Below, one piece after another: positions 1,300-11,162 of a DNA stretch of 43,271 nt. This DNA is from Gammaproteobacteria bacterium. Lineage in GTDB: Bacteria > Pseudomonadota > Gammaproteobacteria > SpSt-1174. Under the pieces are notes generated by a model. It had not been told where the DNA came from. It worked only from the letters and a program-made list of their open reading frames with translations, and made no database searches. The position numbers and the translations under genes are program-made. Position 1 is the first letter of the stretch; every line of letters begins with the position of its first letter. The stretch covers positions 1 to 43,271 of the forward strand of contig JARRKE010000017.1 of assembly GCA_037388465.1 (NCBI GenBank), in the 5' to 3' direction.

Positions 1300-1365
1300 G
1301 GATGTTGTCACAGGCCTGACATGCAGGCTTCATAAACTGCGCCCTTTAATTCGAATAACAACTTC

Positions 1366-1743
1366 ATGGCATACAGCGGTAATACGGGGCTGACCCGCAT
1401 CATCAAGGCGGGCGGATATTCCTGGAAGGGGCTTAAGGCCACGTTCAAACACGAAGCGGCATTCCGTCAGGAGCTGGCGCTGTTCGTGATCCTCGCACCG
1501 ATCGCTATCTGGTTGGGGCATACCGGGCTGGACCGCGCCATGCTCATCGGCAGCCTGTTTCTGATCCTCATCGTCGAACTCCTCAACTCGGCCGTGGAGG
1601 CCGCCATCGACCGTTTCGGTCATGAAATCCACAAACTCTCGGCGCGCGCCAAGGACATGGGCTCGGCCGCGGTATTGCTCAGTATCCTCAATGCCGTGGT
1701 GATCTGGGGCCTGATCCTGATCCCCTGGCCGTCTTCGCTCTAA
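1366..1743 (+). CDS. dgkA: Diacylglycerol kinase (DgkA family)
   Basis: Small inner-membrane kinase that phosphorylates diacylglycerol to phosphatidic acid, recycling the diacylglycerol released by envelope glycan synthesis. The 125 residues align along their whole length with the E. coli enzyme by eye: N-terminal RIIKAGGYSWKGLKA, the EAAFRQE segment, three hydrophobic helices (about 37-55, 58-75, 100-120) and the signature ELLNSAVEAAIDR at 71-83, with E78 matching the catalytic glutamate. The downstream KDMGSAAV block is also intact. It stands alone between gcvPB and the phosphoesterase gene, with 66 bp before it and 91 bp after. No clear Shine-Dalgarno site is seen before the ATG. Confidence 0.96.
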   Translation: MAYSGNTGLTRIIKAGGYSWKGLKATFKHEAAFRQELALFVILAPIAIWLGHTGLDRAMLIGSLFLILIVELLNSAVEAAIDRFGHEIHKLSARAKDMGSAAVLLSILNAVVIWGLILIPWPSSL

Positions 1744-1788
1744 TGACGCTGCCATCGAACTGCAATTAAATCGATAAATAAGCGTCAT
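1743..1788 (+). repeat. Spaced 8-bp inverted repeat after dgkA
   Basis: ATGACGCT at 1743-1750 is matched by AGCGTCAT at 1781-1788 around a 30-nt AT-rich spacer. It begins at the dgkA stop codon. There is no T tract, so it is not a classical intrinsic terminator; it may be a weak RNA hairpin or an operator for the downstream gene. Confidence 0.4.
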
Positions 1789-1834: not shown

Positions 1835-2701
1835 ATGTCGAAGCTGAATTACCGTTCCATATTCATCTCCGACGTCCACCTGGGCACGCGTGATTGCCAC
1901 GCCGCCTATTTGCTGGACTTTCTCCAATCCACCGACTGCGAACATCTCTACCTGGTCGGCGACATTTTCGACCTGTGGAGCATGCGCAAGCAGGTGCACT
2001 GGACGGCCGAACAAAGCGCCGTGGTGCAGTGCATTTTTGACAAGGCTGCCGCCGGCACCGAGGTTACCTTTATTCCCGGCAACCACGACGCCCTGTTGCG
2101 CGATTTCGTGGGGACCACCTTCCGCGGCGTGAAGGTGCGCCGTGACGCGATCCACACCGCCGCGGACGGCAGGCGCTTCCTGGTAAGCCACGGCGATGAG
2201 TTCGACACCGTGGTCAAGCACAACGCCCTGCTGCGCTTTATCGGCGACAACGTTTATTACTGGCTGCTGCGGCTTAACCGCTGGTACAACGGCCTGGGCT
2301 GCCGCCTCGGTATCCGTTACTGGTCGCTCGCCACCTGGCTCAAATCCCGGGTGGGCAACGCGCGCGCCTACATCCGCAAGTTCGAGGAGGCCGCCGCGCT
2401 CACCGCCAACGACCAGGAGCTGGACGGCTATATCTGCGGGCATATCCACAAGGCGTCGATCGAAAAGATCAACGGCGCCCTGTACTGCAACGACGGCGAC
2501 TGGGTCGAGCACTGCACCGCCCTGGTCGAGGACGACGCGGGCTGGCTGCAGCTGCTGCACTGGTCCGATCACCAGCGCGTCGAACTCATCACCCAGGGGC
2601 AGGAGGTCGCGCCGGCCGGCATTCCGCCGGGTTCGCCGGCACTCGCCCTGTTGATGCAGCAATATGAAATCGAGGTGTCCAGTGCAAAAGAAGCGGCTTG
2701 A
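1835..2701 (+). CDS. Calcineurin-like metallophosphoesterase, LpxH-like (UDP-2,3-diacylglucosamine diphosphatase family)
   Basis: Predicted two-metal hydrolase of the family that includes LpxH, which cleaves UDP-2,3-diacylglucosamine to lipid X in lipid A synthesis. The 288 residues carry the full set of metal-ligand motifs: DVH (D13, H15), GDIFD at 42-46, GNHD at 82-85, SHGDEFD at 118-124 and GHIH at 202-205. It is longer than the roughly 240-residue E. coli LpxH and has an insert rich in aromatic residues (WLLRLNRWYNGLG, about 143-155) that could sit on the membrane. GGGAG at 1823-1827 supports the ATG. It may be the LpxH of this organism or a paralogue acting on another membrane-bound pyrophosphate, so I give no symbol. 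Confidence 0.8.
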   Translation: MSKLNYRSIFISDVHLGTRDCHAAYLLDFLQSTDCEHLYLVGDIFDLWSMRKQVHWTAEQSAVVQCIFDKAAAGTEVTFIPGNHDALLRDFVGTTFRGVKVRRDAIHTAADGRRFLVSHGDEFDTVVKHNALLRFIGDNVYYWLLRLNRWYNGLGCRLGIRYWSLATWLKSRVGNARAYIRKFEEAAALTANDQELDGYICGHIHKASIEKINGALYCNDGDWVEHCTALVEDDAGWLQLLHWSDHQRVELITQGQEVAPAGIPPGSPALALLMQQYEIEVSSAKEAA

Positions 2702-3020: not shown

Positions 3021-4985
3021 TCAGGCGTCCTTGATGCGTCCCGTGATGGTCAGGTAACCCACTGCGGCGCTGAACTTGCCGTTGTAGTTCGCTGACTCCA
3101 GCGGTTCGAGCACACCCTTCACCACGTCATGCAGCGGGCTTTCCCAGTCACCGGGGTGCTGGAAGTTGCTCATGATGTAGCTGAAGCCGTTGACGTCGTC
3201 CACCGCATGCAGGCCGGTGGATTCGGCGCCCGCCGGGCAGGACAGGATGCGGCTCAGTTCCCTGGTGTCCACGTTGTAGGCCCACAGGAAGTTGTTCACG
3301 TGGTTGCCGCTGTCCTCGCCGATGAACAGGGTGCGCATGGCCTCGGAGTACTTGATGTTGTCCGGGTTGGCGATCCTGTCGGCGTTGGCGCTGTTGCCGA
3401 GCGGGTCGCGCACGGCGAGGTCTTCGCCGGCCAGGCCTTCCGGCACCGACATGGAGGTGGACACCCACTCGCTGCGGATCGGATGGCCGTCGCTGTCGGT
3501 CTGGCCGCCCTGCAACACATGCTCGTACACCGCGCCGGCCACCGGACCCTGCACGTGGATGTCGGTACTGCCGTCGGTCATCGACTTGTAGATGTAGGAC
3601 ATGGCGGAATAGGCGCGCTTGTCGGCGGCGTTCACCGTGGTGCCTTCCATCTTGGTGAAGCCCATGGAAGCACCGACCAGGGCGGCGTAGCGGTGGGTTT
3701 CGAGGAAGGCGGCGGCCTTTTCCATGCCCGGCATCAGCTTGACCCAGTTGTCATGCCCGCCGAAGCGGATCTTCGTGTAGCTCGCGTCGCCGGGGTCGCT
3801 GGTCTTGACGTCCATGATGTCGAAAGGCTTGATGCCGCCCTCGACCAGGGCCTTGATCTCGGCGCTGGTGGCGTGGCCGAGCCGGATCCAGGAGATGTCA
3901 CCGGCACCGGGGCCGACGCCGGAGGTCTGGGTCCACTTGGCCACGTACAGGGTGCCGGCGGACAGGTCGCGGCGGCGGTCGGCCACGAACATGAACAGGC
4001 CGCCGTTGGTGGCGTCGTCGCCCATCAGCACGGTGCGCTCGTCGGGCATGACCTGCACCAGTTCGTGGGAGATGCGGCCCAGGCAGTAATGTTTCTTGAT
4101 GCTGCCGGTACCGTTGCGGTGCACGGTTACTTCCGGCAGATGGCCGTAGTCGTAGGGGTTGGCCACGCTGCTGTCGCCGAACAGGTTCTGGCTGAAGGTT
4201 TCCAGCTGCGCGTTGCTCGCGCGCGTTGCGTCCGGCTCGTATTCCTCGCTCGCCAGATGGGTGTTCCAGGGAGACTTGCTCGCGCCGCAGGTAATCCACA
4301 GGCCCTTCACGTCCGAGGTGTCGACGTTGTGGTAGCTCACCAGGCTGAGCTTGCCGGTGCGCTCGTCCTGGTCCAGGGTCAGCACGGCGATGGGCGAGGG
4401 CAGCTTGCCGTACATGGAGGTGCCGGCCGCGTTCTGCGAGGTGTATTCGAACTGCACGACCGCGAAGACACGCTTGCAGCCGCGCCGACGCGAACGCACG
4501 CCATGGAGCTGGATCAGCGACATGCCGTCCGGGCAGTCGGAGAAGAACTGGCGCTGGTCGGCCGAGGTGGTGTCCAGGATCGGGTCGTTGTGGATGTCGT
4601 AATAACCGCCGGCGATGACCGTGCCGCCGCCGGTGGCGGGCACCGTGTCGCCGGTGAGGAAGAAGGTCTCATAACCCAAGGCGTAGGTCGCTTTATGGTG
4701 TTTGCCGATGCGCTTGGTCAGCGTGGAGGCGACGTAGGTGGTCGCCATCTGGGCCGGGTCCGCCAGCGAAGGGGCGGCCATGGAACCGAAGCTGTAGCTG
4801 ATCGGCACGCCGTGGCGGAACGGCCGGTCGAACCAGCCGCCGTGGTGACGGCCAAAAGGGGCGGCCTCCGCCAGCAGCGGCAGACCGGTCAGGGTTGTGG
4901 CCAGCGGCAGCATAGGGGCGCCGGCGAGCATTTTGAGCGCCCGGCGGCGTGAAAAGGAAACGGAATCCGAATCGGAATCAGACAT
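3021..4985 (-). CDS. phoX: PhoX-family (DUF839) alkaline phosphatase, Tat-exported
   Basis: Predicted periplasmic phosphatase of the PhoX/DUF839 family, enzymes that use calcium and iron and release phosphate from organic esters. The 654-residue chain starts with an acidic MSDSDSDSVSF leader and a twin-arginine motif SRRRALK (12-18), then a hydrophobic stretch ending near LLAEAA, so export is by Tat as known for PhoX. I chose the ATG at 4985 because GGGAGG lies six bases before it; an ATG 21 nt further upstream has no such site. The body shows family-typical segments such as GDDATNGGLFMFVADRR and FIGEDSGNHVNNFLWAYNVDTREL. The gene is monocistronic, divergent from the small membrane gene and convergent with the LpxH-like gene. 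No Pho box was found by eye, so phosphate control is unproven. Confidence 0.88.
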   Translation of the reverse strand: MSDSDSDSVSFSRRRALKMLAGAPMLPLATTLTGLPLLAEAAPFGRHHGGWFDRPFRHGVPISYSFGSMAAPSLADPAQMATTYVASTLTKRIGKHHKATYALGYETFFLTGDTVPATGGGTVIAGGYYDIHNDPILDTTSADQRQFFSDCPDGMSLIQLHGVRSRRRGCKRVFAVVQFEYTSQNAAGTSMYGKLPSPIAVLTLDQDERTGKLSLVSYHNVDTSDVKGLWITCGASKSPWNTHLASEEYEPDATRASNAQLETFSQNLFGDSSVANPYDYGHLPEVTVHRNGTGSIKKHYCLGRISHELVQVMPDERTVLMGDDATNGGLFMFVADRRRDLSAGTLYVAKWTQTSGVGPGAGDISWIRLGHATSAEIKALVEGGIKPFDIMDVKTSDPGDASYTKIRFGGHDNWVKLMPGMEKAAAFLETHRYAALVGASMGFTKMEGTTVNAADKRAYSAMSYIYKSMTDGSTDIHVQGPVAGAVYEHVLQGGQTDSDGHPIRSEWVSTSMSVPEGLAGEDLAVRDPLGNSANADRIANPDNIKYSEAMRTLFIGEDSGNHVNNFLWAYNVDTRELSRILSCPAGAESTGLHAVDDVNGFSYIMSNFQHPGDWESPLHDVVKGVLEPLESANYNGKFSAAVGYLTITGRIKDA

Positions 4986-5209
4986 GATGCACCTCCCAGT
5001 AGGCATCGAATTTGGGTCCGGGCGCCCCCCTGGCGACCGGATGGACCCGACGCTAGCAAGCGGTGATGACCGGCCGGTGACGTGCAGATGGCAGTTGATC
5101 TACAAGATGCTTCGGTGCCGCCCCGGGAAGGGCTGTGCCGCGGCTCGGTGGCATTCGATAAGTGCATCTGACAGACTCTCCGGGAGAAAGACCGCCGGGC
5201 GAGGTGCCG

Positions 5210-7858: not shown

Positions 7859-8380
7859 TCAAAACAACACCAAACTCCCAACTGCCACTGTCGTCCCGAT
7901 AATCGCTCCGACCAGTACGTCGCTGGGGTAGTGCAGGCCGAGCACCAGCCGCGACAGGGCCACCAGCAGGGTGAAGGGCACGACGACGATCGCCCACTGC
8001 GGATAGTAGCTGACCAGGATGATGGTGAAGCCCACCGCGTGCATGGTGTGCCCGGAGGGGAAGCTGAAGCGGTCCAGCGGCGGGACGCTCTGCAGGATGT
8101 CGCTGTTCATTCTGAAGGGGCGTTCGCGCTGGGTGCTGAGCTTGATCAGTTTGTACAACAGCAGCGAAAGCAGCCCGACGATCATCATGTGTGCCGAGAC
8201 CCGGGCGGCGGACTGGCCGTAGAGAAACGGCAGGGCGATGATGATGCTGTACCAGAAGATACCGTCTCCGAGCCGGCTCACCACGGCGAAGCTGCGCCTC
8301 AGCAGACGGCGTCGGGTGATGCGGTTGAAGAACAGGCAGGCCGAGATCTCGGCTTCACTCATACGCGCTAGCCAGTTCAT
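7859..8380 (-). CDS. PAP2-family membrane phosphatase
   Basis: 173-residue integral membrane phosphatase of the PAP2 superfamily, which acts on lipid phosphates or pyrophosphates at the membrane face. The three signature motifs are intact: K80-x6-R87-P88, PSGH at 108-111 (catalytic H111), and S143-R144-x5-H150-x3-D154. About five hydrophobic helices surround them. The ATG at 8380 is preceded by GAGAGG; longer upstream in-frame starts would add a low-complexity Pro/Ser/Thr stretch lying inside the preceding gene. Its start overlaps the end of the glycosyltransferase gene by 26 nt, so the two are likely coupled in translation. The substrate is probably a lipid intermediate of the same pathway, for instance phosphatidate. 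Confidence 0.88.
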   Translation of the reverse strand: MNWLARMSEAEISACLFFNRITRRRLLRRSFAVVSRLGDGIFWYSIIIALPFLYGQSAARVSAHMMIVGLLSLLLYKLIKLSTQRERPFRMNSDILQSVPPLDRFSFPSGHTMHAVGFTIILVSYYPQWAIVVVPFTLLVALSRLVLGLHYPSDVLVGAIIGTTVAVGSLVLF

Positions 8381-9563
8381 GACGTAGACCTCTCTGTGCG
8401 TGTTCCAGAAGAATGGCCTCGAGCTGGTCGAAGATATGTTCCCAGTCGAGGCGGTCGGTGGTGTCACGGGCGGCGGTGCGCAACGCTGCGATGCGTTGGG
8501 GTGCATCAGCCAGGTCGGTGGCGGCACGAATGAATGCCGCCGGGTCGTTTGGGGTGGCGAGCAGGCCGTTTTGCCCGTCGCGAATGTGTTCATGCGCCGC
8601 GGCGTCGTCGAAGCTGACCACCGCCAGCCCGCTGGCCATGGCCTCGATCACGACGTTGCCGTAGGTCTCCGAGGTGGAGGGGAACAGGAAGATGTCGCCG
8701 CTGGCGTAATGGCGGGCGAGGTCTTCGCCGCGTCGCGTGCCGCAGAACACGAAGTCCGGGTTTTGCGCCTTGAGGGGCTCCGCCTCGGGGCCGTCGCCCA
8801 CCAGCACGAAGCGTGCGCCGGGATGGTTGACCTCGATGCCGCGAAAGGCCTGAGCGGCGAGCGACAGGTTTTTTTCGGCGGCGAGGCGGCCGACATAGAC
8901 AATGGCTAGGGCATCGTCGTTCACGTCCCAGCTCCGGCGCAGTTCGTCGCTGCGGCGTACCGGATTGAACAGCGTGGTATCCACCCCGCGCGCCAGCACG
9001 TTCACGTTGGCGAAGCCGCGTGCCTCGAGGTCCTGCTTGAGGGCCCGGGTCGGGACCAGGGTGGCGCGGCTGCGATTGTGGAAGCGTCGCAAAAAGCCGG
9101 TGATGACCGTTTCCAGAAAGCCGATGCCGTAATAGCGGGAGTAGTAATCGAAATTGGTGTGAAAGCCCGTCACGGTCGGGATGCCGAGCCGGCGCGCGGC
9201 CTTCAGGGCGGAGCCGCCCAACGGGCCCTCGGTGGCGATGTAGATGACGTCCGGCATGGACACACGCCAGGATCGCTGTATGGCGCGTCGGGCCGGCAGG
9301 CCGATGTGTAGGCCGGGGTAGCCGGGCAGAGGCGCTCCGCCGACCAGCAGTTCCTGATACGCGCCTTCTGTTTGCGGCCGGTCGTCGCGGCCCTGGCGCG
9401 GGCGGATCACCTGGATACTGTGGCCTCGTTTGTGCAGCCCACGCACGAGCTGGGAAAGGGTATGGGCGACACCATTGACCTCCGGGGGCCAGGTTTCGGT
9501 GACCAGGGCGATGTGCAGCCCCGGTTCGACCGCGTCATCCGCGTTGGCTGCCTTGGTGTCCAT
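8355..9563 (-). CDS. GT4-family glycosyltransferase, probably lipid-directed
   Basis: 402-residue GT-B-fold retaining glycosyltransferase. The N-terminal acceptor domain opens with HIALVTETWPPEVNGVAHTLSQL, the pattern of GT4 enzymes that glycosylate diacylglycerol or related lipids. The C-terminal donor domain has VYVGRLAAEKNLSLAAQAF and the E-x7-E motif in SETYGNVVIEAMASG. Three ATGs are possible (9626, 9596, 9563). I chose 9563, which starts a polar segment before the first strand and limits overlap with olsA to 29 nt, though the ATG at 9626 has a fair AGGA site. Position after olsBA and before a PAP2 phosphatase suggests it sugars a lipid made by this cluster. The sugar and acceptor cannot be read from the sequence. 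Confidence 0.85.
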   Translation of the reverse strand: MDTKAANADDAVEPGLHIALVTETWPPEVNGVAHTLSQLVRGLHKRGHSIQVIRPRQGRDDRPQTEGAYQELLVGGAPLPGYPGLHIGLPARRAIQRSWRVSMPDVIYIATEGPLGGSALKAARRLGIPTVTGFHTNFDYYSRYYGIGFLETVITGFLRRFHNRSRATLVPTRALKQDLEARGFANVNVLARGVDTTLFNPVRRSDELRRSWDVNDDALAIVYVGRLAAEKNLSLAAQAFRGIEVNHPGARFVLVGDGPEAEPLKAQNPDFVFCGTRRGEDLARHYASGDIFLFPSTSETYGNVVIEAMASGLAVVSFDDAAAHEHIRDGQNGLLATPNDPAAFIRAATDLADAPQRIAALRTAARDTTDRLDWEHIFDQLEAILLEHAQRGLRHELASAYE

Positions 9564-10299
9564 CGTGTACGACTGCACGAACGATTGTGTGGGCATGGGC
9601 CGCCAGGTCGGTGCGCGAGGCGCCATGGGTGTCCTGAAGCGGCAGGAAATTCACCTCCACCTGGATCCGCTTTTCGCCGGTCAGATGCCACAGGTTGTCC
9701 AGCAGGCTCTGATCGTCGATGAAAGGCGCGACGGGGTTCACACCTTCCGGATGCGGGTAGGTGATGGCGACGGGCTGTACCGGGCGATGGGTGGCCACCG
9801 CGGTGTGGAACAGACGCGAATGGAAACGGCGTACGTCGCTGCCGTCACTGGTGGTGCCTTCGGGGAACAGCGCCACCTTCGCGCCGGCCTGCAGGCGGGT
9901 TTCCATTTCCCGGGAGGTAGCTTCGGCCGCGCCGCGGGCGCCGCGCTGGATGAAGACGGTGCCGGTGACGCGGGAAAACCAGCCTATCAACGGCCAGCCG
10001 CTGACCTCGGCCTTGGAAACGAAGCACAGCGGGGCGAGACCGCCCAGTATGTGGATGTCCAGCCAGGAGATGTGGTTGGCCACTACCAGGGCGGAACCCG
10101 CGTGGGGAGTGCCCTTGACGCGGATATCGAGCCCCAGCGCCCGGCACAGGCCGTGGTGCCACCATTGGATGATGCGGAAGAAGCGCGGTGTGGGGACGCC
10201 GCCTTCTCCGGTCCGGGCCATCAGCAGGGTGAGCAGGACTCCCATCAGGGCGTACCCGATCAAGAGGCTATAACGAGAGATTCGGCGCAGTGTTTTCAT
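9535..10299 (-). CDS. olsA: Lysophospholipid/lyso-ornithine lipid O-acyltransferase (PlsC family)
   Basis: 254-residue membrane acyltransferase of the PlsC/AGPAT family. The catalytic block NHISWLD gives H76-x4-D81, and FPEGTT at 145-150 is the glycerophosphate-binding motif. A hydrophobic N-terminal helix (about 10-28) anchors it. The ATG at 10299, after AAAGGGG, starts MKTLRRISRY; it overlaps the end of olsB by 32 nt. Because it directly follows olsB, the likely reaction is acylation of lyso-ornithine lipid to ornithine lipid, as for the adjacent olsB-olsA genes of pseudomonads. By motif alone it could equally be a second 1-acylglycerol-3-phosphate acyltransferase, so the symbol rests on context. 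Confidence 0.8.
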   Translation of the reverse strand: MKTLRRISRYSLLIGYALMGVLLTLLMARTGEGGVPTPRFFRIIQWWHHGLCRALGLDIRVKGTPHAGSALVVANHISWLDIHILGGLAPLCFVSKAEVSGWPLIGWFSRVTGTVFIQRGARGAAEATSREMETRLQAGAKVALFPEGTTSDGSDVRRFHSRLFHTAVATHRPVQPVAITYPHPEGVNPVAPFIDDQSLLDNLWHLTGEKRIQVEVNFLPLQDTHGASRTDLAAHAHTIVRAVVHDGHQGSQRG

Positions 10300-11065
10300 G
10301 CGCCCCTTTATACTCGACGTACTCCTTGCCGAGGAAATGACGCTGGTATCGCGGATTGACATGCTCCATATCCAGCAGGATGAAAACGTCCGCCACACTG
10401 AAGTCCGGATCCCAGCAGGGCTCGCCGCAGACCTTGGCGCCGAGACGCAGATAGGCCTTGAGCAACGGCGGCATGAAGACGTCCGCGGCGGGGATCTGGT
10501 TGATGTCCGGCAGCGCCAGGCGCGGCGCGACGCGTTGTTCGGGATCGGCCAGGTACTTGTCGCGGATCTGCTCCATGATGGCGTGGGCCTGATAGCCGCC
10601 GTCCAGCATGGGGATGCTGGCGCAGCCCATCATGTAGTCGAAGCGGTTGATGAACATGAAGCGCGCGAGTCCGGACCACAGGACCGCGATCGCGCCGCCG
10701 CTGCGATAATCGGAATGGATGCAGGTGCGCCCCACTTCCATGATGCGGCCGGGCAGCGGCAGCAGGCCGTTGAGATCGAATTCGTTCTGGGAATAGAAGC
10801 CGCCGGCGAGCTGGGCCTGGTCGTCGGTCAGGATGCGGGTGCTGCCGACCACTTCGCCGCTGGCGTTGTCGCGCACCAGAAGATGATGGCAGTACGAGTC
10901 GTAATGGTCCTGGTCCAGGCCGCTTTCACCGGACTCCAGTTGCGCACCCATCTCCTCGGCGAAAATGCGGTAGCGCAGTCGCTGAGATTCACGTACGGCG
11001 TCCGCGTCGGCAGCGAGCATGACGCTGAGCGCGGGTTGGTCCTGTTTGGCTGCGGTATGAGTCAT
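10268..11065 (-). CDS. olsB: L-ornithine N-alpha-acyltransferase (OlsB-like, GNAT fold)
   Basis: 265-residue acyl-ACP-dependent GNAT-fold enzyme that adds a 3-hydroxyacyl chain to the alpha-amino group of ornithine, the first step of ornithine lipid synthesis. Family-typical stretches are LRYRIFAEEMGAQ (30-42), LDQDHYDSYCHHLLV, ILTDDQAQLAGGFYSQNEFDL, and EVGRTCIHSDYRSGGAIAVLW. The paired acyltransferase gene follows with a 32-nt overlap. GAGGG lies about nine bases before the ATG. Ornithine lipids are phosphorus-free membrane lipids often made under phosphate limitation; a PhoX gene lies 5 kb away, but no Pho box was seen before olsB. Some annotations give this family only as a GNAT or exosortase-associated acyltransferase. 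Confidence 0.85.
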   Translation of the reverse strand: MTHTAAKQDQPALSVMLAADADAVRESQRLRYRIFAEEMGAQLESGESGLDQDHYDSYCHHLLVRDNASGEVVGSTRILTDDQAQLAGGFYSQNEFDLNGLLPLPGRIMEVGRTCIHSDYRSGGAIAVLWSGLARFMFINRFDYMMGCASIPMLDGGYQAHAIMEQIRDKYLADPEQRVAPRLALPDINQIPAADVFMPPLLKAYLRLGAKVCGEPCWDPDFSVADVFILLDMEHVNPRYQRHFLGKEYVEYKGAHENTAPNLSL

Positions 11066-11162
11066 GGCGTCTTCCCTCTGAGACGGATGACGCCATCGTA
11101 TGCACGTTAATTGTCAACTTCGTGAAATGCCTGTGACAGCCAGGTGACGGTGATACTTCAAA

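Follow-up and report, generated by a model that had tools for sequence, protein, structure and literature searches.

A predicted PhoB-controlled operon joining ornithine lipid genes to a diacylglycerol glycosyltransferase and a PAP2 phosphatase in a gammaproteobacterium

Described lipid renovation systems and the four-gene operon

Bacteria spare phosphorus by swapping their membrane lipids, and in the route described for proteobacteria the diacylglycerol (DAG) is drawn from old phospholipids by PlcP. The main text of Jones 2021 (PMC8528852) reports that in Pseudomonas aeruginosa Agt1 produces glucosyl-DAG and Agt2 produces glucuronosyl-DAG from uridine diphosphate (UDP)-glucuronate and DAG, that these glycosyltransferases are controlled by Pho boxes, that PlcP is a source of DAG and that ornithine lipid is formed under the same stress. 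The plcP and agt1 genes form one operon there, agt2 lies elsewhere, and PAP2 is unmentioned in that main text; some glucuronosyl-DAG remains without PlcP, which the authors attribute to another DAG supply. Here we describe a 43,271-nucleotide stretch of DNA (the window), contig C17 (JARRKE010000017.1) of a draft genome of a Gammaproteobacteria bacterium (GCA_037388465.1; 2.79 Mb, 151 contigs), in which, unlike in P. aeruginosa, a predicted Agt2-type glycosyltransferase of family GT4 is coupled by overlaps to olsB, olsA and a PAP2 phosphatase gene, with plcP lying apart, next to dgkA.

Marine bacteria (Sebastian 2016, PMC4796936) and Methylosinus trichosporium OB3b (PMC9239053) likewise employ a DAG glycosyltransferase and PlcP in phosphate limitation, with ornithine lipid mentioned in both reports, but as described there Agt adjoins PlcP, unlike in the window. 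Most of the gene set of the window is also under PHO control in Pseudomonas putida BIRD-1, where PlcP, DagK, OlsA, OlsB and a UDP-glucose dehydrogenase were PHO-dependent (Lidbury 2016, PMC5082522); in contrast to the window, olsAB and plcP are distant from each other by locus tag, and the main text of that report names no glycosyltransferase or PAP2 protein. According to Sebastian 2016, DAG must arise either from the dephosphorylation of phosphatidate or through PlcP, and two of the strains in that study appear to be without a phosphatidate phosphatase (PMC4796936). The same source names a cyanobacterial phosphatidate phosphatase route to glycolipids, which is similar in giving phosphatidate-derived DAG to a glycosyltransferase, but is suggested there in general terms, with no Pho-controlled operon containing ornithine lipid genes described. 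No published description of the operon reported here was found in the literature searched, which was covered mostly at the level of titles and abstracts, most subscription journals lying outside; the one paper found there to bring together ornithine lipid, a glycosyltransferase, olsB and PAP2 concerns Brucella and innate immunity. The pathway logic of Pho-controlled lipid remodelling is known; the operon is a new variation on it, and a PlcP-independent route through PAP2 and Agt2 is possibly a new element.

We suggest that the four genes probably form an operon under PhoB control that serves to replace membrane lipids during phosphate starvation, yielding ornithine lipid and a glycosyl-DAG, with PAP2 providing DAG. 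Low phosphate would cause PhoB to activate the operon; OlsB and OlsA would then make ornithine lipid, PAP2 would dephosphorylate phosphatidate to DAG, to which the GT4 enzyme would add one sugar, the product probably being glucuronosyl-DAG. PlcP would free more DAG from existing phospholipids, and DgkA would convert surplus DAG back to phosphatidate. Joint production of two phosphorus-free lipids, with PAP2 as the supplier of DAG, had been one of two options in the initial annotation of this DNA, and it gains support from the Pho boxes, the presence of plcP and dgkA in the window, the position of GT4 in a phylogenetic tree and gene co-occurrence. The Pho box, as well as plcP, dgkA and phoX, had escaped that annotation.

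Gene layout and predicted phosphate control

On the minus strand, olsB comes first, followed by olsA, GT4 and PAP2 (Table 1). The initial annotation had placed these open reading frames (ORFs) correctly and their Pfam families agree with it; with ATG starts at 10299, 9563 and 8380, the junctions overlap by 32, 29 and 26 nt, as it stated. A strong ribosome site (AAAGGGG) precedes the olsA start and a fair one (GAGAGG) the PAP2 start at 8380, while the GT4 start at 9563 has none and a better one (AGGA) is found at the upstream ATG at 9626. The olsA/GT4 overlap may therefore be 62 or 92 nt instead, if GT4 starts further upstream, and that between GT4 and PAP2 could be 8 nt if PAP2 starts at 8362. 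Wherever GT4 starts, it does overlap olsA, as there is no in-frame ATG, GTG or TTG for GT4 beyond the olsA stop. Tight coupling of GT4 and PAP2 is a habit of the family, as seen from the junctions in 41 relatives' loci with both genes near each other on one strand: 22 overlap, 15 have a gap of 0–100 nt and 4 a wider one.

The closest NCBIfam models of the olsB product are OlsB equivalogs (158 and 156 bits; cut-offs 350 and 320) and that of the olsA product is the OlsA equivalog (153.6 bits; cut-off 300), all scoring below their cut-offs. Adjacent genes for an N- and an O-acyltransferase are as in the OlsB/OlsA ornithine lipid pathway. Two more weak matches to Acetyltransf_5, the OlsB-type domain, stand in tandem elsewhere in the genome (L002 and L003; C1:79223-80301).

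Table 1. Positions of the operon genes, Pho boxes and neighbouring genes in the window
Feature	Position	Strand	Details
olsB, ornithine N-alpha-acyltransferase (predicted)	10268..11065	-	PF13444 (Acetyltransf_5), 121.7 bits
olsA, lyso-ornithine lipid O-acyltransferase (predicted)	9535..10299	-	PF01553 (Acyltransferase), 89.8 bits; 32-nt overlap with olsB
GT4 glycosyltransferase, Agt2-type DAG glycosyltransferase (predicted)	8355..9563	-	alternative starts 9596 or 9626
PAP2 lipid phosphatase, 173 amino acids	7859..8380	-	PF01569, 80.5 bits; alternative start 8362
Pho box of olsB, three repeats spaced 11 bp	11122..11150	-	CCGTCAC-CTGG-CTGTCAC-AGGC-ATTTCAC; begins 85 bp 5' of olsB; score 18/21
Pho-box-like triple repeat before dgkA	1305..1333	+	score 16/21
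Pho-box-like triple repeat before plcP	1738..1766	+	score 16/21
Pho-box-like triple repeat before phoX	5066..5094	-	score 17/21; 0.025 expected per window at ≥17
dgkA, prokaryotic diacylglycerol kinase	1366..1743	+	PF01219, 118.7 bits
plcP, PlcP-type calcineurin phosphoesterase (phospholipase C type, predicted)	1835..2701	+	Metallophos domains
phoX, PhoX-type alkaline phosphatase	3021..5006	-	PF05787, 74.4 bits; cut-off 24

In the entire 2.79-Mb genome, three CTGTCAY repeats with ≤3 mismatches are matched only by the Pho box 5' of olsB, and the same genome-wide search with the reversed pattern as a control returned 0 matches. When triple repeats were scored across the window, six matches reached ≥16/21, compared to 0.45 expected per window from the control, and each lies 5' of dgkA, phoX, plcP or, in three registers, olsB; five other gene starts of the window score 11–12. 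A scan of the window for two-repeat boxes was not significant (12 matches vs 9.05 expected), leaving only the three-repeat form as informative. PhoB itself is encoded in the genome (351.6 bits vs a cut-off of 296.2). A predicted PhoB-binding Pho box is thus present in the olsB promoter region, as in a member of the Pho regulon, and PhoB-dependent induction of the operon at low phosphate would be expected.

Pho boxes also accompany GT4 in relatives. From 100 loci taken, six were dropped for want of a GT4 ORF and 94 were scored 5' of GT4 or of the presumed first gene of its operon; 55/94 score ≥15 (1.9 expected) and 75/94 score ≥14 (8.2 expected), the loci sharing kinship, with many from Pseudomonas. 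Two loci with olsB and olsA, L106 and L113, score 13 and 12, which says nothing of their olsB promoters because of the region scanned. In a control with real upstream regions, 65/112 GT4 ORFs reach ≥14, compared to 92/970 other ORFs; the same score is found upstream of OlsB in 14/18, PlcP in 12/24, PAP2 in 7/42 and OlsA in 1/10.

Phosphoesterases that cluster near GT4 in relatives pointed to PlcP, of which the window has a copy of its own, 44–56% identical to those of seven relatives. Against LpxH models the relatives' copies score 31.6–54.3 bits (cut-offs 134 and 190.35). Directly 5' of plcP lies dgkA, with phoX on the other side of plcP, and the plcP and dgkA genes are about 5–6 kb from the four-gene operon. 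PlcP and DgkA are known DAG-handling partners under phosphate starvation. Within a phosphate-starvation cluster, the dgkA of the window would spend adenosine triphosphate on reversing the release of DAG by PlcP or PAP2.

The GT4 enzyme and its partners in relatives

The GT4 product carries GT-B domains PF13439, PF00534 and PF13692 above cut-off (GT4/GT1 domains 111.1 bits). Pseudomonas otitidis has two GT4 matches (E 1e-25), 52% and 35% identical to it; the latter adjoins PlcP and fits agt1. Neighbours of the 52% match are genes for cysZ, a thioredoxin-reductase-like protein, a flavin mononucleotide oxidoreductase and a glutathione peroxidase, a neighbourhood which we take to be the PA0838–PA0849 region holding agt2 (PA0842). 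In a quick LG+G4 tree with Shimodaira-Hasegawa-like approximate likelihood ratio test (SH-aLRT) values and no bootstrap, the GT4 of the window joins the Pseudomonas GT4s without a neighbouring PlcP, apart from the PlcP-adjacent, Agt1-type ones, within a 95-row clade set off by a branch of 1.52 (SH-aLRT 100). These relationships point to an Agt2-type enzyme. The sugar placed on DAG would most likely be glucuronic acid, or possibly glucose; UDP-glucuronate is plausible since two nucleoside diphosphate-sugar dehydrogenases are encoded in the genome.

These clusters repeatedly contain a second GT4 (26–29% identity), located either between olsB and dgkA or behind PAP2 (L060:5414-6472, L072:5586-6386, L113:4244-5626), which possibly represents a further sugar-adding step. 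At another locus (L050:5291-7271) olsB directly adjoins a distant, Agt1-like GT4, so that ornithine lipid genes are paired with the other GT4 type as well.

In a sample of 114 class-level genomes, GT4 was found in 25, PlcP in 31 and OlsB in 15. GT4 occurs together with PlcP in 23/25 GT4 genomes (Fisher p 2.7e-15) and with OlsB in 7/25 (p 0.02), the p values serving as a guide only because of shared ancestry. The GT4 alignment retrieved 591 loci, of which the best 80 were analysed, some of them shortened by contig ends; partners in these 80 were PAP2 (32), PlcP (21, five of which are just 25–32% identical), OlsB (15), DgkA (13) and OlsA (9). Eighteen genomes with GT4-PAP2 were hand-chosen from the 80 and searched at E 1e-10: seven gave no PlcP match, 13 no OlsB match and six neither. 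Such absences are soft, as some of the 18 are metagenome-assembled genomes (MAGs); those not titled MAG among the six are Xanthomonas cissicola, Rhodanobacter spathiphylli, Lysobacter lactosilyticus, Tamilnaduibacter salinus and Stenotrophomonas sp. SY1. Among the 15 close-clade members of the class sample, two have GT4-PAP2 with no PlcP match, ten have GT4 with no OlsB match, and PlcP is present in 13. We therefore reject PAP2 as a simple stand-in for an absent PlcP, both here, where the window contains plcP, and for the majority of close-clade genomes.

A broader proposal, to which we give slightly less than even chances, is that GT4 and PAP2 together form a self-sufficient two-gene route under Pho control, leading from newly made phosphatidate to glycosyl-DAG without any need for PlcP. 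The route would be common among Gamma- and Betaproteobacteria, some of which lack both PlcP and OlsB, and ornithine lipid genes would have become linked to it on several occasions, as in the window. It could represent the additional, PlcP-independent source of DAG that P. aeruginosa seems to have, although PAP2 was not found beside GT4 in the Pseudomonas loci.

Scattering of the four genes in relatives, which the initial annotation had named as a refutation, is seen in part: the same genes are repeatedly found as neighbours but in changing arrangements, and the exact order is rare and not conserved. In the 95 clade rows, olsB lies ≤1.2 kb from GT4 in ten, seven of which, the window included, also have PAP2. 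The arrangements include olsA-olsB-dgkA-GT4-PAP2 (L062, L065), olsA-olsB-GT4b-dgkA-GT4-plcP (L060), olsB-GT4-PAP2 (L108), GT4-PAP2-olsB (L104) and, in a genome of the same family (G001), olsB-GT4-olsA without an adjacent PAP2 and with dgkA-plcP on a separate contig. The exact order as a conserved unit was rejected: the Chromatiaceae MAG L113 has olsB-olsA-GT4-PAP2, but its olsB is shortened and fused in frame to olsA (1523-2488) by a deletion or an assembly error, and L106 has olsB-olsA-GT4 and no more. The tree implies at least 9 changes of state for a nearby OlsB and at least 12 for PAP2, which may be gains or losses, with short contigs adding noise. A layout resembling the window is seen in Ectothiorhodospira haloalkaliphila (L058, L197/L201), where a single contig carries both GT4-PAP2 and olsB-plcP in a span of about 11 kb.

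Substrates and alternative explanations

The PAP2 protein has all of the motifs KX6RP, PSGH and SRX5HX3D, which are invariant across 32 homologues, and its AlphaFold model is of high confidence (predicted local distance difference test score of 95.2). The solved fold nearest to the model is LpxE, a lipid A 1-phosphatase (template modelling (TM) score 0.80 on query length), followed by soluble acid phosphatases and a PgpB-type enzyme of B. subtilis; with such neighbours, the fold does not settle the substrate. The nearest NCBIfam model is the undecaprenyl-diphosphatase SepP (62.6 bits vs a cut-off of 250). Both assignments are far from confident, but they weigh against PAP2 as a supplier of DAG from phosphatidate. 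So might topology: LpxE and PgpB have their active sites on the periplasmic face of the membrane, and GT4 would be expected at the cytoplasmic face. Further points to be held against the proposed pathway are that a co-regulated DgkA would reverse the reaction of PAP2; that only 1/16 dgkA genes in relatives have a Pho box at ≥14 upstream, so that the dgkA box of the window is not conserved and finds no backing there; that in 43/95 clade rows GT4 has no neighbour from among the three partners; that the fork directly above the window's GT4 has an SH-aLRT of 88 and is not starred; and that the Agt2 label derives from P. otitidis and the presumed PAO1 gene order rather than from the PA0842 sequence.

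In one alternative, the operon would be Pho-controlled in the same way, but PAP2 would act on lipid A 1-phosphate, undecaprenyl diphosphate or phosphatidylglycerophosphate, thereby sparing phosphate or freeing carrier lipid, and PlcP alone would feed DAG to GT4. We consider this unlikely, though it deserves more weight than any other alternative: the resemblance to LpxE, PgpB-type enzymes and SepP and the plcP gene of the window speak for it, but PAP2 overlaps GT4 or begins ≤100 nt past its stop in 37/41 paired loci, occurs at just 1/14 of the relatives' olsB loci, where GT4 is also near, and accompanies GT4 with no PlcP match in 7/18 genomes. The other option of the initial annotation, namely that GT4 glycosylates ornithine lipid itself, seems very improbable. 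It would agree with the overlapping genes of the window and with the ten clade rows in which olsB adjoins GT4, some of them lacking PAP2 (G001, L106). However, there is no OlsB match in the genomes of 10/15 close-clade members of the class sample and 13/18 carriers of GT4-PAP2, and GT4 tracks PlcP rather than OlsB; on this co-occurrence we reject a glycosylated ornithine lipid as the leading interpretation. In addition, the Agt2 type acts on DAG (PMC8528852, main text), and the phrase 'glycosylated ornithine lipid' was not found in the literature searched. Least probable of all, and barely worth entertaining, is a loose operon of unrelated envelope genes with no shared lipid pathway: the rarity of the exact order would suit it, but the Pho box of olsB is unique in the genome and the same gene set pairs repeatedly in differing orders.

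Lipid replacement with two phosphorus-free products, PAP2 supplying DAG, is the reading that we retain. The linkage of a DAG glycosyltransferase, in one operon, with its own lipid phosphatase and with the making of ornithine lipid suggests a possible diversion of new lipid synthesis ahead of phospholipid formation. The existence of GT4-PAP2 genomes without PlcP makes such a PlcP-independent diversion directly testable.

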